IMG/VR virus record: IMGVR_UViG_3300034018_002789
Coordinates: 1 to 61,436 of that record
Length of the DNA: 61,436 nucleotides
Origin: a virus
Reading direction: 5' to 3' (one strand)
The first letter of the stretch is position 1. Each line of letters starts with the position of its first letter. The translations under genes and the position numbers were made by a program. A model generated the notes under the pieces. It ran no database searches and was not told the DNA's origin. It saw nothing but the letters and a program-made list of their open reading frames with translations. Positions 1-59,369 of this stretch are shown here, piece by piece.

Positions 1-1221
1 TGTTAACTTTAATATGCCATCTCTTGGTTCATCTAAGCTTATTACCAATTCATAAAATATATCGCCATATAGTAGAAGGCTTTTGAAGTCTGCCCAGATT
101 CTACGATTGACATTGAGCATAGATCTGTGAAAAAACAGAAATTCCAATTCTTCTTTTACATCTTCATTTTTTGCATTTATTGTAAAAACATTACCATTAT
201 TATCTTTTTGGCAATTATGAACAACAGTTACATCTGTGCAGAAGTTATGGTGTTCTTCAACAGTTAAATCATATACAGGAACAGTATTTCCTGTTAATTT
301 TCCAAGAACTCTAACATGTTCTGGGTAGTTATTGCCAAGCCATCTAAGTTCTTTGAGATTAAATCCTTCTTTGGCAAGTCTATCTTTGAATGTTCGCCAA
401 TCAACATCTATAGAATTTTTGATTTGGCTCATCGACAATTGCTTGCTAGCTATTTTGCCATAATAGTTTACATTTTTATATTTTTCTATATCTTTGCCAG
501 TTCTCCATTCATCAACAAATTGTCTTTCGTGTACCCATCCTTTGTTGAATGTGAAAATTCTTGGAAATCTTTTGGTTTTAAAATTGTTTAAGTATTCATG
601 TGTTTGAACACAATGAAATGGCATTACTTCGTCTCCGATTTGGAGATCGCCAGCCTGAATCCATTCTCCATTTCTGAGTAATATTCTGTGATCTGGAGTA
701 CATTCTAAGTTTTTGCCGAAATCAAATACTATTTGAATTGTTTCAGCTACTTTTGTTTGTCTTGGGGAGTGAGCCCATCCTAATGAATAATCTTGTTTTT
801 TAAAATCATAACAATACACCAAGAATTTTTCATTTTTATATGTTTCAGCTAGAAAGCTTATTTTCTGATATCCAAACGGTGTGGCAACTAAAGTATTTCC
901 TGCCAAGCATGCTTCATCAGAAAAGACATTAAGGGCCATTTCAATTTCTGGTACGCTGCGTAATCTTTCGTATTCTTTGTATCTTGACTGTCTATTTGAT
1001 ACTGTAGATAGGTCTATAAAATCATTAGATTCACGCAAGCGAATTAATCTAGAATCGTTACCACTCCAAAATGAGCCATCTGGGCTTAATGTGGGGATTG
1101 AATCTGGAGATGAAATGCCTGCGCCGACAACATCTGATGTGTCTACAGTTTTTGATAAAGGATCGCTAGTGAAGGCATAGTCGAAAGTCTTAAAAAAGTC
1201 AGCCCAAAGTGGAGTAGGCAT
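1..1221 (-). CDS. Portal protein (T4 gp20-like), intein-interrupted, 3' end outside window
   Basis: Reading the minus strand from the ATG at 1221 gives an open frame with no stop through base 1 (407 codons seen). The outer segments look like the N-terminal half of a T4-type portal: a segment with RSVPEIEMALNVFSDEA (ends at residue 104) and, after the intein, a segment containing VNRRIWADFKSLLLYGDIFYEL and ending DEPRDGILKLT. This matches the T4 gp20 pattern of a conserved NEA element followed by a region ending in a Gly-Ile strand. Portal proteins form the dodecameric head vertex through which DNA is packaged. Residues 105-336 are an intein. The ATG has a good RBS (GGGAG, 5 nt upstream). It lies downstream of terminase and two small genes on the same strand, the usual packaging-gene neighbourhood. 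The C-terminal part is beyond the window. Confidence 0.85.
   Translation of the reverse strand, partial: MPTPLWADFFKTFDYAFTSDPLSKTVDTSDVVGAGISSPDSIPTLSPDGSFWSGNDSRLIRLRESNDFIDLSTVSNRQSRYKEYERLRSVPEIEMALNVFSDEACLAGNTLVATPFGYQKISFLAETYKNEKFLVYCYDFKKQDYSLGWAHSPRQTKVAETIQIVFDFGKNLECTPDHRILLRNGEWIQAGDLQIGDEVMPFHCVQTHEYLNNFKTKRFPRIFTFNKGWVHERQFVDEWRTGKDIEKYKNVNYYGKIASKQLSMSQIKNSIDVDWRTFKDRLAKEGFNLKELRWLGNNYPEHVRVLGKLTGNTVPVYDLTVEEHHNFCTDVTVVHNCQKDNNGNVFTINAKNEDVKEELEFLFFHRSMLNVNRRIWADFKSLLLYGDIFYELVISLDEPRDGILKLT
214..909 (-). other. Intein (232 aa) inside the portal protein
   Basis: Portal residues Cys105 to Asn336 carry the hallmarks of a class 1 intein. Block A is CLAGNTLVATPFG with Cys1. Block B is CTPDHRILLRNGEW, with the T-x-x-H motif, followed by GDLQIGDEV. 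Block F is VPVYDLTVEEHHNF. Block G is VTVVHN, followed by Cys as the +1 extein residue. The penultimate His and terminal Asn needed for Asn cyclisation are present. At 232 residues it is longer than a minimal splicing domain, with about 100 residues between blocks B and F. I see no LAGLIDADG or HNH motif there; part of it (around residues 255-300) looks helical and could be a helix-turn-helix. It sits exactly at the conserved EA element of the portal, typical of inteins in conserved sites. Splicing is inferred from motifs. Confidence 0.88.
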
Positions 1222-6146: not shown

Positions 6147-7772
6147 ATGTTTAAAATCTTTTTTGATAAATTGTATGCTGGTATTTTCATTCCTAATAAG
6201 AGCAAAGCAACTACAACAACTCCTAGACCAAAGGTGAAATCTATGATGAAATTTTATTATAATGATCCAAATTATCCTAATCTTATTGGCACTGTAGAAA
6301 ATCCCGAACCAAAAGGATTGCCTATTGATTGTATGTTTTTAACTCCTGGCGCATACCCTTTTACCTCAAAAGAAGGCATGGCAGCAAACGCATACGCTTT
6401 GTGTTGTCAGGGCATAGACATTTTTAATAGCTTGTTTGGTCTTAAAAAATGGGCAGCAGTAAATAGGTTAACAATAGACCCAATGGCAGGGCAGCAAGCC
6501 AATGCATTTTATGACAGAAGATTTTTAAAGTTCTTTTACTTTTCGAAAAACAATAAAACCGTATATACGGCATTATCTGCAGATATTGTTTTGCACGAAC
6601 TAGGGCATGCTTTGTTGGATGCAATTCGTCCAGACTTTTTTAGTGCAGCGTCTATCGAAGTTTGGTCATTTCATGAAGCTTTTGGCGATATAAATGCGAT
6701 GATTTGTGCTTTGCATTTTGATCCTGTTGTTAACAAGATGCTAGAAGATACCAAAGGAAATTTAAGGCAGTCTAATATTGTTAGTAGTGTTGCCGAAGAG
6801 TTTGGAATAGCATTAAATATTGGATGCGGATTAAGAGATGCAAACAATACATTTAAATATGTAAATCCAGAAACATTACCGGCTCAAGGTCCCAATTCAT
6901 CTTTAATTAAGGAACCTCATTCTTTTGCAAGAGTTATGACAGGAATTTTTTATGATATCTTTGTAGAAATATATGAGAAAAATGGAAAAAACAAAGAGGC
7001 AGTTATTAAAGCAAGGGATTATTTAAAACAAACTTTTTTCAAAGCTTGCATAAATGCTCCTTCTTGTGCTAATTTTTATGAATCGTTTTGTGAAAATTGG
7101 ATGATAGAAGATGGCAAAATGCCAGTTTCTTATCGTGATATACTAGTAAAAATTTTCACTCAAAGAGACATATTTAGAATTAACAAGCTTGATAGTATGT
7201 CAAGTGAAGATGGTATTGAAAAAGAAAAAACTTTTGGAACAGTAGATGGAACTGTAAAGCTTGAAAAATACAAGTATACAGTTAAAATAGAAGAGTTGTT
7301 TAATGATTCTGTATTTCCTATGGATGCATCTAATTTTTCAGACATGAAGGTAGAGTTAGCTGTTGACGAAATGTCAATTAAAGGACCTTTCTTTACATGG
7401 CAAAGAATATCTAGCCCATTTGATGAAGCTGTAAAAGCAGCTAAGGATTTAGTCGAATTTGTTTTTTCAAAAAAGTTATTTGGATCAGATGAAAATGCCA
7501 TGTGGTTCAAAAATGATCAGAATACTTTAACTAGAAGATTCTTCCAATGTGATTGCTATAAAAATAACTCAACAATACCTGGATCTCCAGAGTATGGAAA
7601 AGGACAGAAGCCTTTAAACAATACTGGTTGCTGTACTTATGGAAGTTGCGCAAATTCGACAAAGGAAGAAGACAAAAAAGTTGAAAAAACTTGCAATATA
7701 CGCTATAGTAGTGTATGCAGTCGTGCCAGCTACAATGGCTCATGCAATAGACCAACAAATAAGCCTTGTTAA
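6147..7772 (+). CDS. M4/gluzincin-like zinc metalloprotease
   Basis: The zinc motif HELGH lies at residues 150-154 (two His ligands and catalytic Glu). A downstream WSFHEAFGDINAM places a third ligand, Glu177, in an E-x-x-x-D context, as in thermolysin-type (M4) gluzincins. The segment before the motif is consistent with the preceding strand and helix, and a helical domain follows as in that clan. Residues beyond about 340 do not look like a protease, and the last 75 residues are Cys-rich (about ten Cys, with CDCYKN, CCTYGSC and SVCSRAS), suggesting a disulphide-stabilised tail. No signal peptide is evident. RBS GAGGTG precedes the ATG. A tail-associated or lytic role is possible; an endogenous substrate is unknown. 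The gene sits 13 nt ahead of the acidic protein. Confidence 0.7.
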   Translation: MFKIFFDKLYAGIFIPNKSKATTTTPRPKVKSMMKFYYNDPNYPNLIGTVENPEPKGLPIDCMFLTPGAYPFTSKEGMAANAYALCCQGIDIFNSLFGLKKWAAVNRLTIDPMAGQQANAFYDRRFLKFFYFSKNNKTVYTALSADIVLHELGHALLDAIRPDFFSAASIEVWSFHEAFGDINAMICALHFDPVVNKMLEDTKGNLRQSNIVSSVAEEFGIALNIGCGLRDANNTFKYVNPETLPAQGPNSSLIKEPHSFARVMTGIFYDIFVEIYEKNGKNKEAVIKARDYLKQTFFKACINAPSCANFYESFCENWMIEDGKMPVSYRDILVKIFTQRDIFRINKLDSMSSEDGIEKEKTFGTVDGTVKLEKYKYTVKIEELFNDSVFPMDASNFSDMKVELAVDEMSIKGPFFTWQRISSPFDEAVKAAKDLVEFVFSKKLFGSDENAMWFKNDQNTLTRRFFQCDCYKNNSTIPGSPEYGKGQKPLNNTGCCTYGSCANSTKEEDKKVEKTCNIRYSSVCSRASYNGSCNRPTNKPC

Positions 7773-7785
7773 TAAGGAGTGAGTT

Positions 7786-8151
7786 ATGTTCAGTTTTGAA
7801 GAAGATTTAATTAACTGTTTTTTCCAAACCAATTACAAACTCTCAGAAGCATTGTCGGCTGTTAAATGCAAAGATAACGAAGATGATGAAGACGAAGACG
7901 AAGACGATTGGGATGATGACGAAGATGATGATGACGATGATGACGATGATGACGATTGGGACGATGAAGATGATGATGAAGACGAAGATGATGACGAAGA
8001 TTGGGATGACGATGACGATGACGATGACGATGAAGATGAAGATGATGATGAAGATGATGATGAAGATGATGATGAAGATGATGATGATGACGAAGATTGG
8101 GATGAAGATGAAGACGATGAAGACGATGAAGATGAAGATGAAGACTATTAA
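7786..8151 (+). CDS. Hyperacidic Asp/Glu/Trp repeat protein, 121 aa
   Basis: After a roughly 30-residue ordinary N-terminus (FSFEEDLINCFFQTNYKLSEA), residues 33-121 are almost entirely Asp and Glu, with Trp inserted at intervals (DDWDD, DEDWD, EDWDEDED). The DNA is a GAT/GAC/GAA run, prone to length change. Strong RBS (AAGGAG) and 13-nt spacing from the metalloprotease suggest one operon. Such tails can bind divalent cations or basic proteins, or mimic DNA charge; none of these can be shown here. It overlaps the convergent neighbour by 4 bases. Confidence 0.75.
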   Translation: MFSFEEDLINCFFQTNYKLSEALSAVKCKDNEDDEDEDEDDWDDDEDDDDDDDDDDDWDDEDDDEDEDDDEDWDDDDDDDDDEDEDDDEDDDEDDDEDDDDDEDWDEDEDDEDDEDEDEDY

Positions 8152-16630: not shown

Positions 16631-17519
16631 AATTTACCGCTTCTATAAAATCATTTACTTTTAAATATTTAGCAAATGAAAACGAATTTTTCAAACCTGT
16701 GTAAAATATTTTTGTATTTGGATTAGAATATCTATACCAAAAAATCATGTGATTAATAATATCATTTGCCATTTTTTGTTGTGGATACATACACACACCT
16801 TCACCAGTATCTACCATGCCATCTTTTTTATCTGAATAACCTTCTGAACAAAATGCGAGAAATATACGTTCTGCCTTAAATTTATAAGCACAATGAAGTG
16901 CAGCACAAATAGGATTCCTATAATCATCAATAAAAAATGTTTCGTCAATAGAATTTGGACTACTGAATTTATAATTCGGAGTAGGAGAATAAACAAATTT
17001 ATTGTTTCTGTAGCTTTTCAAAAAATTGTAATCCATTCTTTGGCTACATATTAACCTAGGATAAAAATTCATCCCAGTAGGTTTAGTAAAAGAGTTTGTT
17101 AAATAAAAATTTGGATATTTATTTGCATTCCATAATAAAATTGTTTTATTAACACAAAAAACTTGTTTTTTATCAAATGTATCAATAGATTCAATAATGT
17201 TTTTGTGATTTTCTCTGAATTCAAAACCATTTGAAATTATTACTACAGAATCTATTTCAAAATTTTCTGTAGATATATTTGGAACAATTAGTTTTGAATT
17301 TTTAATTTCATTTTCTATGCATGTTTGTATTTCTTCGTCTGCATATAGATCATTTATATCTATTGGTTTTGTATCATCTCTTGTGAAATTCCTTACCCAA
17401 ATATTGTTTGTTAAAGAATATTGGTTCCTATCTTTTGTAATTTTTATAGAAACATTTTCTTTTTGATTATTTGAATTTGTTACAGATATTACTCGGAGAT
17501 CATTATTTTTTGTTTCCAT
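16620..17519 (-). CDS. DUF115/Maf-like glycan-modifying protein, 299 aa
   Basis: The central part resembles MAF/DUF115 and sialyltransferase-like Rossmann proteins: [11 protein letters not shown] (residues about 90-100), then [19 protein letters not shown], and later [32 protein letters not shown], where a Gly/Asp-rich loop follows a strand, as in a nucleotide-sugar site. Maf proteins glycosylate flagellin in bacteria. The ATG at 17519 with GGAG 6 nt upstream is preferred to the ATG at 17540. Directly downstream of the Pro/Thr-repeat adhesin, it is a candidate for modifying fibre repeats. Assignment is from pattern only. Confidence 0.45.
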
Positions 17520-20500
17520 TATCATCTCCAAAAATATCACTCAGGTCAGGCTTTACATCGTGTTTTTTCTCCCGTATCTTGTATATTTTTGTTTCCTTAT
17601 CATTAAATTTTATTTCATGATCAACAAATGGTATTTCTTTTACATTTGCAGTTTTTTCTTCATTAGTCAATCTCAAATTAAGATCTTTTATAAATAAAGT
17701 TTTTTGTTGAAATTCTATTGGCTTAAATGAAAGCTTATTCTTAATGTCAGCAACCTCAGAATAAAAAGATAAATCTTGTAATTTACTAGAAAATTCTTTT
17801 GCTTCAGGATAAGTTTCAAAATTATTTGTGTACAATGATGTTAAAGTAAATGCGCTTGAAGAACCATAATCATCTGTACAATCAGAAGTATATATTTGGC
17901 CAGAAGATGTTCCATCTCCATCTGGTTCGCCCGGACAAATACATTTGTAACCACAAAAGTTAATTGCAGTAAGGCCTTCTTCTGCAGCAGTACATGGCCC
18001 AAAAGCTGAATTGTAATCATTAGGACAAGAACAAGGACTTGCGCAATTATTGCTTGATAATAACCATTGATACGATCCAGTTTCTTTTGTACATCTATAT
18101 TCACAATCACCAAAGGTAGGATCGCCACATCCAGATGATTCTTGTGAAAATTTACAATCTCCTGTTACTTCATGTTCAATCCACTCGCTAGCTTTTCCTG
18201 GAACTACAGTCCATTGATATTTACATTGACCACATGCTAGTGGGCTTGTACATTGACAATTAGTTGATACTGATTCATCAATATAAGTTCCTTCTCTAGC
18301 AGGAGCACCACAACTTCCAACTTTAGTACATTTGTTTTCCATTTCCTCCCATGTGCCTTGATAACATCCAAGAAGTTCGCTGCAAGGCTGTTGTGGTTGA
18401 CCAGGAGGGGCGCAATTTCTATATACTGTTGGCAAAAGTCCTAATGCTTGAGCTTCTATTGCAGTTAAGCATCGGCAAGGATATTTGCTTCCAGGATCTC
18501 CCGAGTTACATTCCTGACTACTGCTTGCTAATACCCAGTTGCTATTTTCCCATTGATAAGTGCAAAGCAAATCTGCCAAGCACGAACTCATACTCCATTG
18601 GAAAGAACAAGTTCCACATGTACCAGGAGTAATAGTTCCAGGCGTTGGTGTTGGTTGCGGTGTTGGTTGCGGTGTTGGTTGCGGTGTTGGTTGCGGTGTT
18701 GGTTGCGGTGTTGGTTGCGGTGTTGGTTGCGGTGTTGGTTGCGGTGTTGGTTGCGGTGTTGGAAACGGTGTTGGAAACGGTGTTGGAAACGGTGTTGGAA
18801 ACGGTGTTGGAAACGGTGTTGGAAACGGTGTTGGAAACGGTGTTGGAAACGGTGTTGGTTGTGGTGTTGGTTGTGGTGTTGGTTGTGGTGTGGGAACAGG
18901 TGTGGGAACAGGTGTGGGAACAGGTGTGGGACAAGTATCTTTTAATGTATATTGAACATCAACACATACGCTTGAAAACGATGCATTAAGATTTGGGTCA
19001 TTACTTGCAATCCAAAAACTCCATCCTGTTGAACTTATATCATCGTTTTTAAAAGTTTGTAAAGATGTTCCATAAGGTTTAGATACAGAAGCTTGTGGTG
19101 CAGGTGCGGCCAAATTACTTCTACCTGCAGAAGATGAAGCTTGATTGTTATTTGGCGATGGCTTGTAAGACCCATTTTGCAAAGCATCGGAAAGATTATA
19201 CAAATAATTTGACGCAGAATCAGTAAATTTAAGATTTACAGGGCCTCTAAAATCACTTGCAACAGTCCCGCTTCCCATAAGCAAAACAGTCTTGCCAGAA
19301 GGAGACTGAAGTAAAAGTTTTATGCTTCCCCAATCTGTTGTTCCTGTAATATTAAAATCATTAATATAAACTTCAACTTTTGATATTTTGCCAGTATCTC
19401 CGGGGCAAAGGAAGCAGGTTCCTGTTCCAAATGGGTAAGAAGAAGGTTTTCCATTTATTATTTTTACTTCTTGCGAACAAACATTACAACTATTTCCACC
19501 AAGAATGTCAATAACTGCTGGAGTTATATCAATAGTAGAAGGAATTGGAGGAAATGGAGAAATGGTTATATTGCTTGGAATATTTGGAACTGATCCAAAG
19601 TTAATTACACTTGGTATATTAATTGGAGGAACAATATTTATAACGCTTGGTATCTGTATTGGTCCAAATGGCCCTATATCAAGACAAGGAAATACTATTG
19701 GAGGGAGTTGTATATCGGCATTTACTAGAGTTCCAATATTAAAATCAATATCTGGTATAGTTGGCAGGTCTGGCAAAACTGTTTCAAGATTCACAGGTAA
19801 AACTTGAATTAGGGGTTCGTTTGCTTCGGTTCTTTCTATAGCGCTTTGAACAATTTCGCATTGGGCAGAATCTACTCTAACTAATGGATCTGCTTTATTA
19901 TTAGGAGCATAATTATGAGTTCCAGATAAGTTTACAGTTTCTGTATTTCCATCACTAAAGTCTATAATAAAACTGTCATAGCTGCCTATAATTTCTAGTT
20001 CGTATTCAATTAATGTTCCAGTTGTATTATTAGAACTTACTATATAATAATAAAATGTAACAGTTGGACAAGTATCATCAACTATTGGCTGTTGCAAAGC
20101 AATATTTCTTATTTTCCAATCTAATGTTGTTTTATTTGTGGAATTTTCAATCCCAATAAAATTTTCTATATTTACAGCAGCTCTTGATAATTGGTTATGG
20201 TGTTCTGCTATTACAAATCCACGAGCAATTGTTCCTGCGGGATTGTATTTTGGATGCTCTCCTCCAAGATTTCTTATGCAATTTAGTAAAGCAGATACTT
20301 TTCCAGTTCCATAATCTTTTTGAACATTATCATAGTATATTAATTCACCAGATATATTTACATAACCATTATCTGCCCATATTTCTTGTTTATCTGTTGA
20401 TACTGGTTTTAAATATATTTCTTTTGCCCATGCTTCCAAATTTTCAGTTAGTGGAGCTTCAGAGGTGTTATAAACTTTAAGAAGGTTATAATCCGTATCA

Positions 20501-20541
20501 TAGTTATTAGGGTAAACTACTTTTGGTGGATAGATTGCCAA
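17503..20541 (-). CDS. Large adhesin: AEHHN anchor, P-domain-like, PTPx repeat and Cys-rich modules
   Basis: A 1012-aa virion surface protein. Residues 1-150 hold an anchor-type N-terminus with [21 protein letters not shown], the same pattern as in the two PKD proteins upstream. Residues about 230-350 are Pro/Ile-rich (repeated [10 protein letters not shown]-like lines). Residues about 365-540 resemble a proprotein-convertase P-domain ([33 protein letters not shown]), a beta-jelly-roll. Next come 23 tandem PTPx units (x = V, Q or F), then a Cys-rich region with repeated (C)-x-x-x-C-x-W modules ([23 protein letters not shown]). The C-terminus is helical and charged. It is probably an elongated fibre or adhesin; its receptor is unknown. 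It stops 17 nt inside the start region of the Maf-like gene. Confidence 0.75.
18640..18930 (-). repeat. 12-bp tandem repeat encoding PTPx units
   Basis: Twenty-three near-perfect 12-bp units (GGTGTTGGTTGC, GGTGTTGGAAAC, GGTGTTGGTTGT and GGTGTGGGAACA on the plus strand) encode (P-T-P-V)3, (P-T-P-Q)3, (P-T-P-F)8 and (P-T-P-Q)9 in order of the protein. The blocks of identical sub-units show expansion by slippage or unequal recombination. Such stalks are stiff, extended and often O-glycosylated. Confidence 0.95.
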
Positions 20542-25943: not shown

Positions 25944-32735
<6,792 letters not shown>

Positions 32736-52501: not shown

Positions 52502-53137
52502 GTGCATAACATTATCCGTTTGGACAGAATTATAAAAACAAAACATTCTGATCTTCATGTTGAACCACATATTATTAGAATATCAAAAGGCTTCAACAAT
52601 GAAATGACAGAAGAATTTCAAGAAGAATTTGAAAAAGCTGTCAATAGAAACAAAACATTAATACCTATTTTTATAGATTCTTATGGAGGAGACGTTTATT
52701 CATTAATGCAGCTAATCTCTACCATAAAAGCTTCTCCCCTTCCTGTGGCCACAATATGCACAGGCAAAGCTATGTCTTGTGGCGCTATGCTTTTTATGTT
52801 TGGCAATGAAGGATTGAGATTTTTAAGCGAAGAAGCTACAATCATGATACATGATGTAAGCTCTTTCACTTTTGGCAAAATAGAAGAAATAAAAGCCGAT
52901 GTTAAAGAAGCTGAAAGGCTAAATGATGCCATTTTTAGAATGGCAGCAAAAAATATTGGCAAAAATGAAAAGTTTTTATTAGACATTATTGATAAAAAGA
53001 AACATGCTGACGTATTTCTTAATTCAAAAGAATGTAAAAAACTAAACATTTGTAACCATATTGGAGTTCCTCATATGCTGACAGAAGTAAAAGTAAAACA
53101 TTCTATTGTTTTAAACAATAAAAAGCTAGAAATTTGA
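52502..53137 (+). CDS. ClpP-like serine protease
   Basis: The crotonase/ClpP fold is clear: IPIFIDSYGGDV near residue 54-65, catalytic Ser92 in GKAMSCGAMLF, catalytic His117 in ATIMIHDVSS and a candidate Asp near residues 161-170. This pattern is shared by ClpP and signal-peptide peptidase A, and by ClpP-like prohead proteases of some phages. At 211 aa it fits a single-domain ClpP. It could mature head proteins or degrade host factors. The start is GTG (52502) with a weak RBS; no better ATG lies near. It is 46 nt after the CCA-like gene. Confidence 0.75.
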   Translation: MHNIIRLDRIIKTKHSDLHVEPHIIRISKGFNNEMTEEFQEEFEKAVNRNKTLIPIFIDSYGGDVYSLMQLISTIKASPLPVATICTGKAMSCGAMLFMFGNEGLRFLSEEATIMIHDVSSFTFGKIEEIKADVKEAERLNDAIFRMAAKNIGKNEKFLLDIIDKKKHADVFLNSKECKKLNICNHIGVPHMLTEVKVKHSIVLNNKKLEI

Positions 53138-58994: not shown

Positions 58995-59369
58995 ATGGAA
59001 AAAAACCACAAGCATTTAATTTTAAACGCTGTTGTTACCGACCCAATAAATGATGAAAAATCTTGCAATAAATGGCTAACAGATTTGGTTGATATTGTTG
59101 ACATGGAAATACTAATTCCTCCCCATAGCAAATATTGTGACATTCCTGGTAATGAAGGAGTGACAGGAACAGTTGTAATAACAACAAGTCATATGTCGAT
59201 TCATATATGGCCGCAACAGCCAGAGCCTCATATTAGAATGGATGTATATAGCTGCAAAGATTTTGATGTAGAAAAAGTTGTAGAATTCGTAAAAAAGAGT
59301 ATGGGAATAGTTGATTTTGATTATGTATTAATCGACCGAAACAAAACCAAAATGAATATAATTAGTTAA
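58995..59369 (+). CDS. S-adenosylmethionine decarboxylase-like (SpeD)
   Basis: Matches prokaryotic AdoMetDC: the pyruvoyl-forming site in TTSHMSIHIWPQ at residues 63-74 with catalytic Ser65 and His70, and a C-terminal YSCKDF giving Cys87. The spacing Ser-x4-His agrees with the Thermotoga type; the Cys is two residues further, probably a loop insertion. The enzyme makes decarboxylated AdoMet for spermidine synthesis. Polyamines neutralise packaged DNA. RBS AAAGGAAG before ATG. The 1-nt overlap with the HNH gene suggests co-transcription. Confidence 0.7.
   Translation: MEKNHKHLILNAVVTDPINDEKSCNKWLTDLVDIVDMEILIPPHSKYCDIPGNEGVTGTVVITTSHMSIHIWPQQPEPHIRMDVYSCKDFDVEKVVEFVKKSMGIVDFDYVLIDRNKTKMNIIS

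Follow-up and report, generated by a model that had tools for sequence, protein, structure and literature searches.

The portal gene of this phage is interrupted by an intein that has probably been domesticated, namely a cis-splicing class 1 intein of likely HNH descent whose excised protein would have a role of its own, presumably the binding of nucleic acid. On a reading that is somewhat favoured, the portal precursor would be a self-separating fusion giving rise to the portal and a nucleic-acid-binding regulator in a 1:1 ratio, with the regulator carried as an independent, splicing-dead gene in one lineage. The protein also survives where splicing is lost, encoded by a separate gene, and this favours a role of the excised intein over a splicing switch. 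The near-fixation of the intein, its conserved middle with a predicted helix-turn-helix (HTH) and the splicing-dead separate gene in two relatives are the points that go beyond an earlier note on this DNA.

The window, i.e., the whole stretch of DNA analysed, is a linear IMG/VR record of 61,436 bases. On its minus strand, an open reading frame at 1-1221 encodes 407 residues, remains open at the left window edge and contains an in-frame insert at portal residues 105-336 (nt 909-214). The position and the length of 232 residues given for the intein in the earlier note were exact. The features of the gene are the following:

910-1221, minus strand: N-extein, the first 104 portal residues, ending ...NVFSDEA (Pfam and PHROG profiles, junction alignment)
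214-909, minus strand: class 1 intein of 232 residues (C-LAGNT ... VVHN); Cys+1 is the first residue of the C-extein (Pfam and NCBIfam profiles, AF2, fold match, relatives)
610-909, minus strand: N-terminal splicing half, intein residues 1-100, with Cys1 and block B T71-P-D-H74 (profiles, fold match)
487-573, minus strand: conserved GW block, intein residues 113-141, predicted beta hairpin and helix, RFPRIFTFNKGWVHERQFVDEWRTGK (conservation, AF2)
328-486, minus strand: predicted helix-turn-helix-type bundle, intein residues 142-194, at the position of the endonuclease in homing inteins (AF2, weak Pfam HTH matches)
214-288, minus strand: C-terminal splicing half, intein residues 208-232, with block F VYDL..EEHHNF and block G VVHN (intein_Cterm above cutoff)
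1-213, minus strand: start of the C-extein, CQKDNNGNVF..., cut by the window edge (Portal_T4 match at residues 347-406)

When the flanks of the intein were joined, they matched Portal_T4 (Pfam, E 1.4e-12) and the portal family phrog_213 (PHROG, E 2.1e-14), bearing out the proposal of a portal gene that runs off the window. Over the full-length portal of the relative L009, Portal_T4 was matched at E 9.1e-74, and a profile of the relatives' C-exteins matched T4 gp20 at E 1.3e-40, so the exteins belong to a T4-type portal and the suggested correspondence to gp20 stands. The insertion element previously described as EA is a conserved (N/D)-E-(A/S) motif, the intein being placed between it and the next residue (x), and the junction alignment demonstrated that this site is uninterrupted in outgroup portals, which are at most 36% identical. 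Upstream of the portal, a 110-aa gene and a 275-aa gene are followed by the large terminase, which indicates a head and packaging context. Elsewhere in the window, the minus strand encodes a 2263-aa protein (25944-32735) with many RCC1-like repeats linked by long Thr/Ser tracts, possibly a tail or fibre protein, and a 1012-aa protein (17503-20541) with a long (PTPxPTP)n tract flanked by structured parts. The plus strand carries a 121-aa ORF whose final two thirds are nearly all Asp, Glu and Trp (7786-8151), a predicted metallopeptidase with a HELGH motif (6147-7772; a similar gene lies at L258:4386-5687, minus strand, near the terminase of an empty-site relative) and, by eye, an S-adenosylmethionine decarboxylase-like gene (58995-59369) and a ClpP-like gene (52502-53137).

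Chance is excluded as the origin of the intein match. Profile searches of residues 105-336 against intein families gave Pfam Intein_splicing at E 1.8e-12 (47.8 bits versus a cutoff of 35.8) and, from NCBIfam, intein_Nterm at 4e-08 and intein_Cterm at 2.5e-05, each above cutoff. Together with the Hint fold, the residues at the junctions (Cys1, T71-P-D-H74 as the TxxH of block B, the penultimate His and terminal Asn H231-N232, and Cys+1) confirmed the class 1 assignment. Cys1 at the start and HN/C at the end were present in all 123 retrieved loci (85 unique; 228-238 aa), and residue 1, T71, H74, D214, F223, H231 and N232 were invariant among 74 sequences. The AF2 model of the intein, which was built from 73 sequences with row L014 left out, reached a pLDDT of 96.6 and a pTM of 0.90; in a VIA-align comparison covering the splicing domain only, it superposed on the Mtu RecA mini-intein with Z 22.0 and an rmsd of 1.5 A over 137 residues. 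The remaining ~100 residues were modelled as a beta hairpin with a helix (117-137) and, after these, four helices at 142-155, 160-166, 171-180 and 185-194. A model of the whole precursor was of low confidence (pLDDT 69.5) and was set aside. A non-catalytic cysteine, Cys33 (window 811-813, minus strand), within the motif VYCYDF, is nearly invariant and is kept in both free-standing homologues described below; it is possibly a redox-active or metal site.

Viral contigs ranging from 4.0 to 527 kb carry the same intein at the same site, as does the 595-kb huge-phage record LR756511, which is the only record with the middle region among isolate-dominated phage records. Among prokaryotes (84,980 species, one genome each), the middle region was present in one MAG contig. 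The word 'intein' is absent from the main text of a huge-phage survey (PMC7162821). A single Portal_T4 gene, intein-bearing, was counted in each of 13 records whose completeness is not established (the window, eleven IMG/VR records of 116-527 kb and LR756511), and in ten of these the portal had the only Intein_splicing match, so that the interrupted gene is probably the only portal gene of the phage. The dependence of the phage on splicing, raised in the earlier note, is made likely by the same single, intein-bearing gene in the 12 further records of 116-595 kb.

It was initially supposed that the intein was absolutely fixed, which proved wrong: the earlier searches were biased to intein carriers or close portals, and two empty sites were found. 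In an intein-independent search with the N-extein, the best 80 of 205 loci, which represent the closer part of the clade, comprised 77 intact inteins (229-238 aa), one broken intein and two empty sites; thus, in this part of a clade of often huge phages, the intein appears to be nearly fixed. In the broken intein, on one contig retrieved three times (L013, L052 and L187), a 221-nt deletion at L013:5476-5483 shifts the portal frame, and the residual N part looks the same as that of L003; this reflects either misassembly or a dead allele. Scans for an empty-site pattern yielded two chance matches, one in a terminase-like protein (L277) and one in a large protein that is tail- or protease-like (L174), and a third scan returned only the two true empty-site contigs. 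L054, considered a split case because its ORF starts near the C-extein, is actually a portal from another clade that lacks the intein and is frameshifted; on this contig, an intein-like segment containing a GIY-YIG-like ORF (1692-2366) interrupts the terminase gene (L054:772-3451).

Instead of the sporadic occurrence, common empty sites and conflicting trees of a homing intein, the high occupancy of the best 80 loci was accompanied by largely congruent trees: the extein tree shares 22 of the 30 intein splits at a support of 0.95 and contradicts one, and the Mantel correlation between intein and extein was 0.69, with null values reaching at most 0.12. The simplest account would be a single insertion before the clade diversified, followed by descent with the portal.

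The middle of the intein, between the two splicing halves, is also conserved. In a canonical mini-intein, the linker is short and the total length is about 130-150 aa, whereas this intein has a folded middle and 228-238 aa. Within the middle, the block QFPRI.T..KGW.HERQF.DEW has a mean top-residue frequency of 73% versus 68-70% in the splicing blocks and 49% in the HTH part, and G124, W125, E128 and G182 are invariant in 74 sequences. The mean net charge of the middle is +8.7, against -0.5 and -3.4 for the splicing halves, and weak matches to Pfam HTH families were obtained in several members (best E 1.7e-4); the HTH-type middle is a candidate nucleic-acid-binding domain. In 16 independent pairs, dN/dS was 0.27 pooled and 0.13 median in the middle, compared with 0.17 and 0.09 in the exteins. 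These ratios indicate that the middle is under purifying selection, with weaker constraint than the portal, and this constraint may also reflect a fold needed by the splicing domain.

That last possibility leads to the first alternative, in which the intein is trapped and functionless, having lost its nuclease and persisted because precise deletions seldom occur and the phage needs its portal, with the middle kept for the fold. This is fairly unlikely. The invariance of the splicing residues agrees with it, as does the fact that nuclease loss with splicing retained is the textbook route to a mini-intein (PMC7765530). However, the length is near-constant, and the GW block, with no obvious need in splicing, is conserved like the splicing blocks in 86 sequences; moreover, in two non-splicing relatives the entire protein persists under purifying selection, encoded separately from the portal.

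The middle likely represents an HNH homing domain minus its catalytic core, in which the block preceding the core and the HTH bundle following it have been retained. The intein profile aligns with the HNH intein of Bacillus phage SP-15 over the two Hint halves and also over the post-HNH stretch (106-231 to 353-486, E 1.5e-7, a score that also takes in the C-terminal Hint half). NrdA inteins of Dickeya and Salmonella Ackermannviridae, as well as a second portal intein of the relative L148, were aligned through residues 134-138, and in L148 the alignment ends just before the HNH core; its HTH stretch was matched at E 0.046 only, and by hhalign the N half alone was aligned with this L148 HNH intein. 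The evidence for HNH descent thus comes from hmmsearch, tblastn and the match to SP-15, and as the C-terminal splicing half contributes to the SP-15 score, such descent is likely but unproven. The L148 intein (L148:2677-6540) is inserted at C-extein residue 252/253; it carries a motif of the HNH_3 type (HHVDYNRLNNNPNNL) and, towards its C end, a stretch resembling an HTH. Another portal intein, at C-extein residue 171/172, was observed in L046-L050, L053 and L158 (portal ORFs), L109 and L051; it has LAGLIDADG-type matches in L050, the one tested, is shortened to about 260 aa in L051, and looks like a normally mobile intein.

The middle might conceal a divergent nuclease, and in a second alternative such a nuclease, overlooked by sequence comparison, continues to promote homing and thereby sustains the high occupancy. 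The conservation of E128, R129, D133 and E134 could be read in this way, and hidden HNH domains in phage insertion elements have been described (PMC11855218). Nevertheless, Intein_splicing was the sole Pfam match in the window's intein, with no nuclease family, as the earlier note had it in finding no recognisable homing endonuclease, and the HHxDxN..NN..NL core of L148 and SP-15 is missing from the portal-intein alignment. Additionally, the congruence of the intein and portal trees and the derived nature of the empty alleles, which are not naive targets, render this explanation very improbable.

The two empty-site portals, L257 (contig 3300032884_000230) and L258 (3300033977_000105), read through the insertion site as YADEA followed directly by CQIGEN, and in both an intein-derived gene of 235 or 236 codons lies separately between terminase and portal:

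L257:4217-4924: free-standing homologue, matching the intein profile at E 2.9e-82
L258:11778-12488: free-standing homologue, matching the intein profile at E 2.0e-77

Both homologues lack the class 1 catalytic residues at both junctions, Cys1 being replaced by Ser or Met and the terminal HN by SN or NK, and the +1 residue is absent. In FastTree phylogenies, the two portals are sisters (0.999) that adjoin the intein-bearing L053 (0.96), and the free-standing pair likewise adjoins L053 in the intein tree (0.95). Placement of the pair beside an intein carrier in both trees makes the empty site the derived state; most simply, the separate gene would be the lineage's own former portal intein. No free-standing copy was found upstream of the L053 portal; some neighbouring genes of L053 are related to those of the empty-site pair. 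The relocation in L257 and L258 is probably one event seen in two partial contigs. The gene just before the free-standing intein (L257:3590-4135, L258:11221-11781) matches, in L257, Acb1 (anti-CBASS) and 2'-5' RNA ligase families at E 1e-7 to 2e-7.

It could be argued that these genes are recent escapees in decay and are uninformative on function, given that their catalytic residues are lost and that the dN/dS of the pair (0.44) exceeds that of the neighbouring TerL (0.10) and portal (0.08) genes. However, the 95% CI of this ratio (0.29-0.64) excludes 1, neither frame contains a stop where neutral decay would give about 14 per lineage, and the GW block is identical at 24 of 29 positions (83%), so that decay is a very doubtful explanation. 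The retention of frame and conserved block once splicing had become impossible and unnecessary indicates that the protein was kept for something else. The HTH is the least conserved part of the pair, with 17 of 48 positions identical (35%); the retained function may thus differ from sequence-specific DNA binding, and this pattern suggests that the GW block carries a shared activity and the HTH a changing specificity.

The earlier note also raised splicing as a possible switch. A remaining alternative is a conditional splicing switch, in which the middle would sense DNA or another signal, gate portal maturation and in this way time head assembly. The interrupted gene being probably the only portal gene is compatible with such a switch, other inteins are known to splice conditionally (PMC5790916, PMC6195587), and the nearly invariant Cys33 could be redox-active. 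The free-standing proteins, however, have been kept despite their lost splicing residues, which argues for a conserved role independent of splicing and makes the switch distinctly unlikely as the main explanation.

Domestication of the intein, the preferred reading, can be set out as a sequence of steps. The ancestor would have been an HNH homing intein that lost its catalytic core before the clade diversified; homing is no longer visible, and the intein appears to pass down with the portal gene. From the chemistry of class 1 inteins, we infer that the precursor splices in vivo, through Cys1, Cys+1 and Asn cyclisation, so that every event yields a mature portal subunit together with a 232-residue protein. 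The freed protein would act in the phage, most simply by binding nucleic acid through its basic middle with the putative HTH. A working guess is that it exerts feedback on portal or late-gene expression, by analogy with I-TevI, and this model is attractive because the intein protein would be made one for one with the portal. I-TevI, the endonuclease of the T4 td intron, is an intron-encoded GIY-YIG enzyme, a homing protein that also represses its own expression through an HTH-bearing domain; it serves as a model for the proposed function only, and relationship to the portal intein is not claimed.

Like phage HNH homing inteins, the portal intein has the Hint fold, with 35-41% identity to the SP-15 intein (in a terminase-type gene) over the N half, and a block that aligns before the HNH, SP-15 also aligning after it; unlike the SP-15 and NrdA inteins, it is without the HNH core, about 230 aa long and nearly fixed. 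It resembles the Mtu RecA deletion variant and the Npu DnaB mini-intein in its splicing fold (Z 21-22) and absent nuclease, whereas these mini-inteins are about 135-150 aa with a short linker and the linker of the portal intein has an extra conserved domain of ~105 aa. Inteins in the phage portal gene are also known from six mycobacteriophage entries of cluster C1 (PMC5050341), the comparison here concerning the interrupted gene. The yeast HO endonuclease is a precedent for the domestication of an intein-related protein, made into a separate gene with a role in its host (PMC7282813); HO acts as a nuclease, whereas the portal-intein derivative has lost the nuclease and retains the Hint fold and the predicted HTH. 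In the open-access literature, outside of which most subscription papers lie, no account was found of an intein that lacks a nuclease, bears an HTH and is nearly fixed in a clade of phages, or of a splicing-dead free-standing intein derivative.

Whether inteins serve their carrier beyond removing themselves is an old open question, and the evidence has mostly concerned conditional splicing. The present clade adds a further case of a portal gene in which head assembly probably depends on protein splicing, in phages that reach huge genome sizes. In addition, splicing and a second role appear to have been separated in nature, as two phages with an uninterrupted portal keep a catalytically dead intein gene, and the comparison of the intein-bearing and free-standing states makes the question of a benefit to the carrier directly testable.
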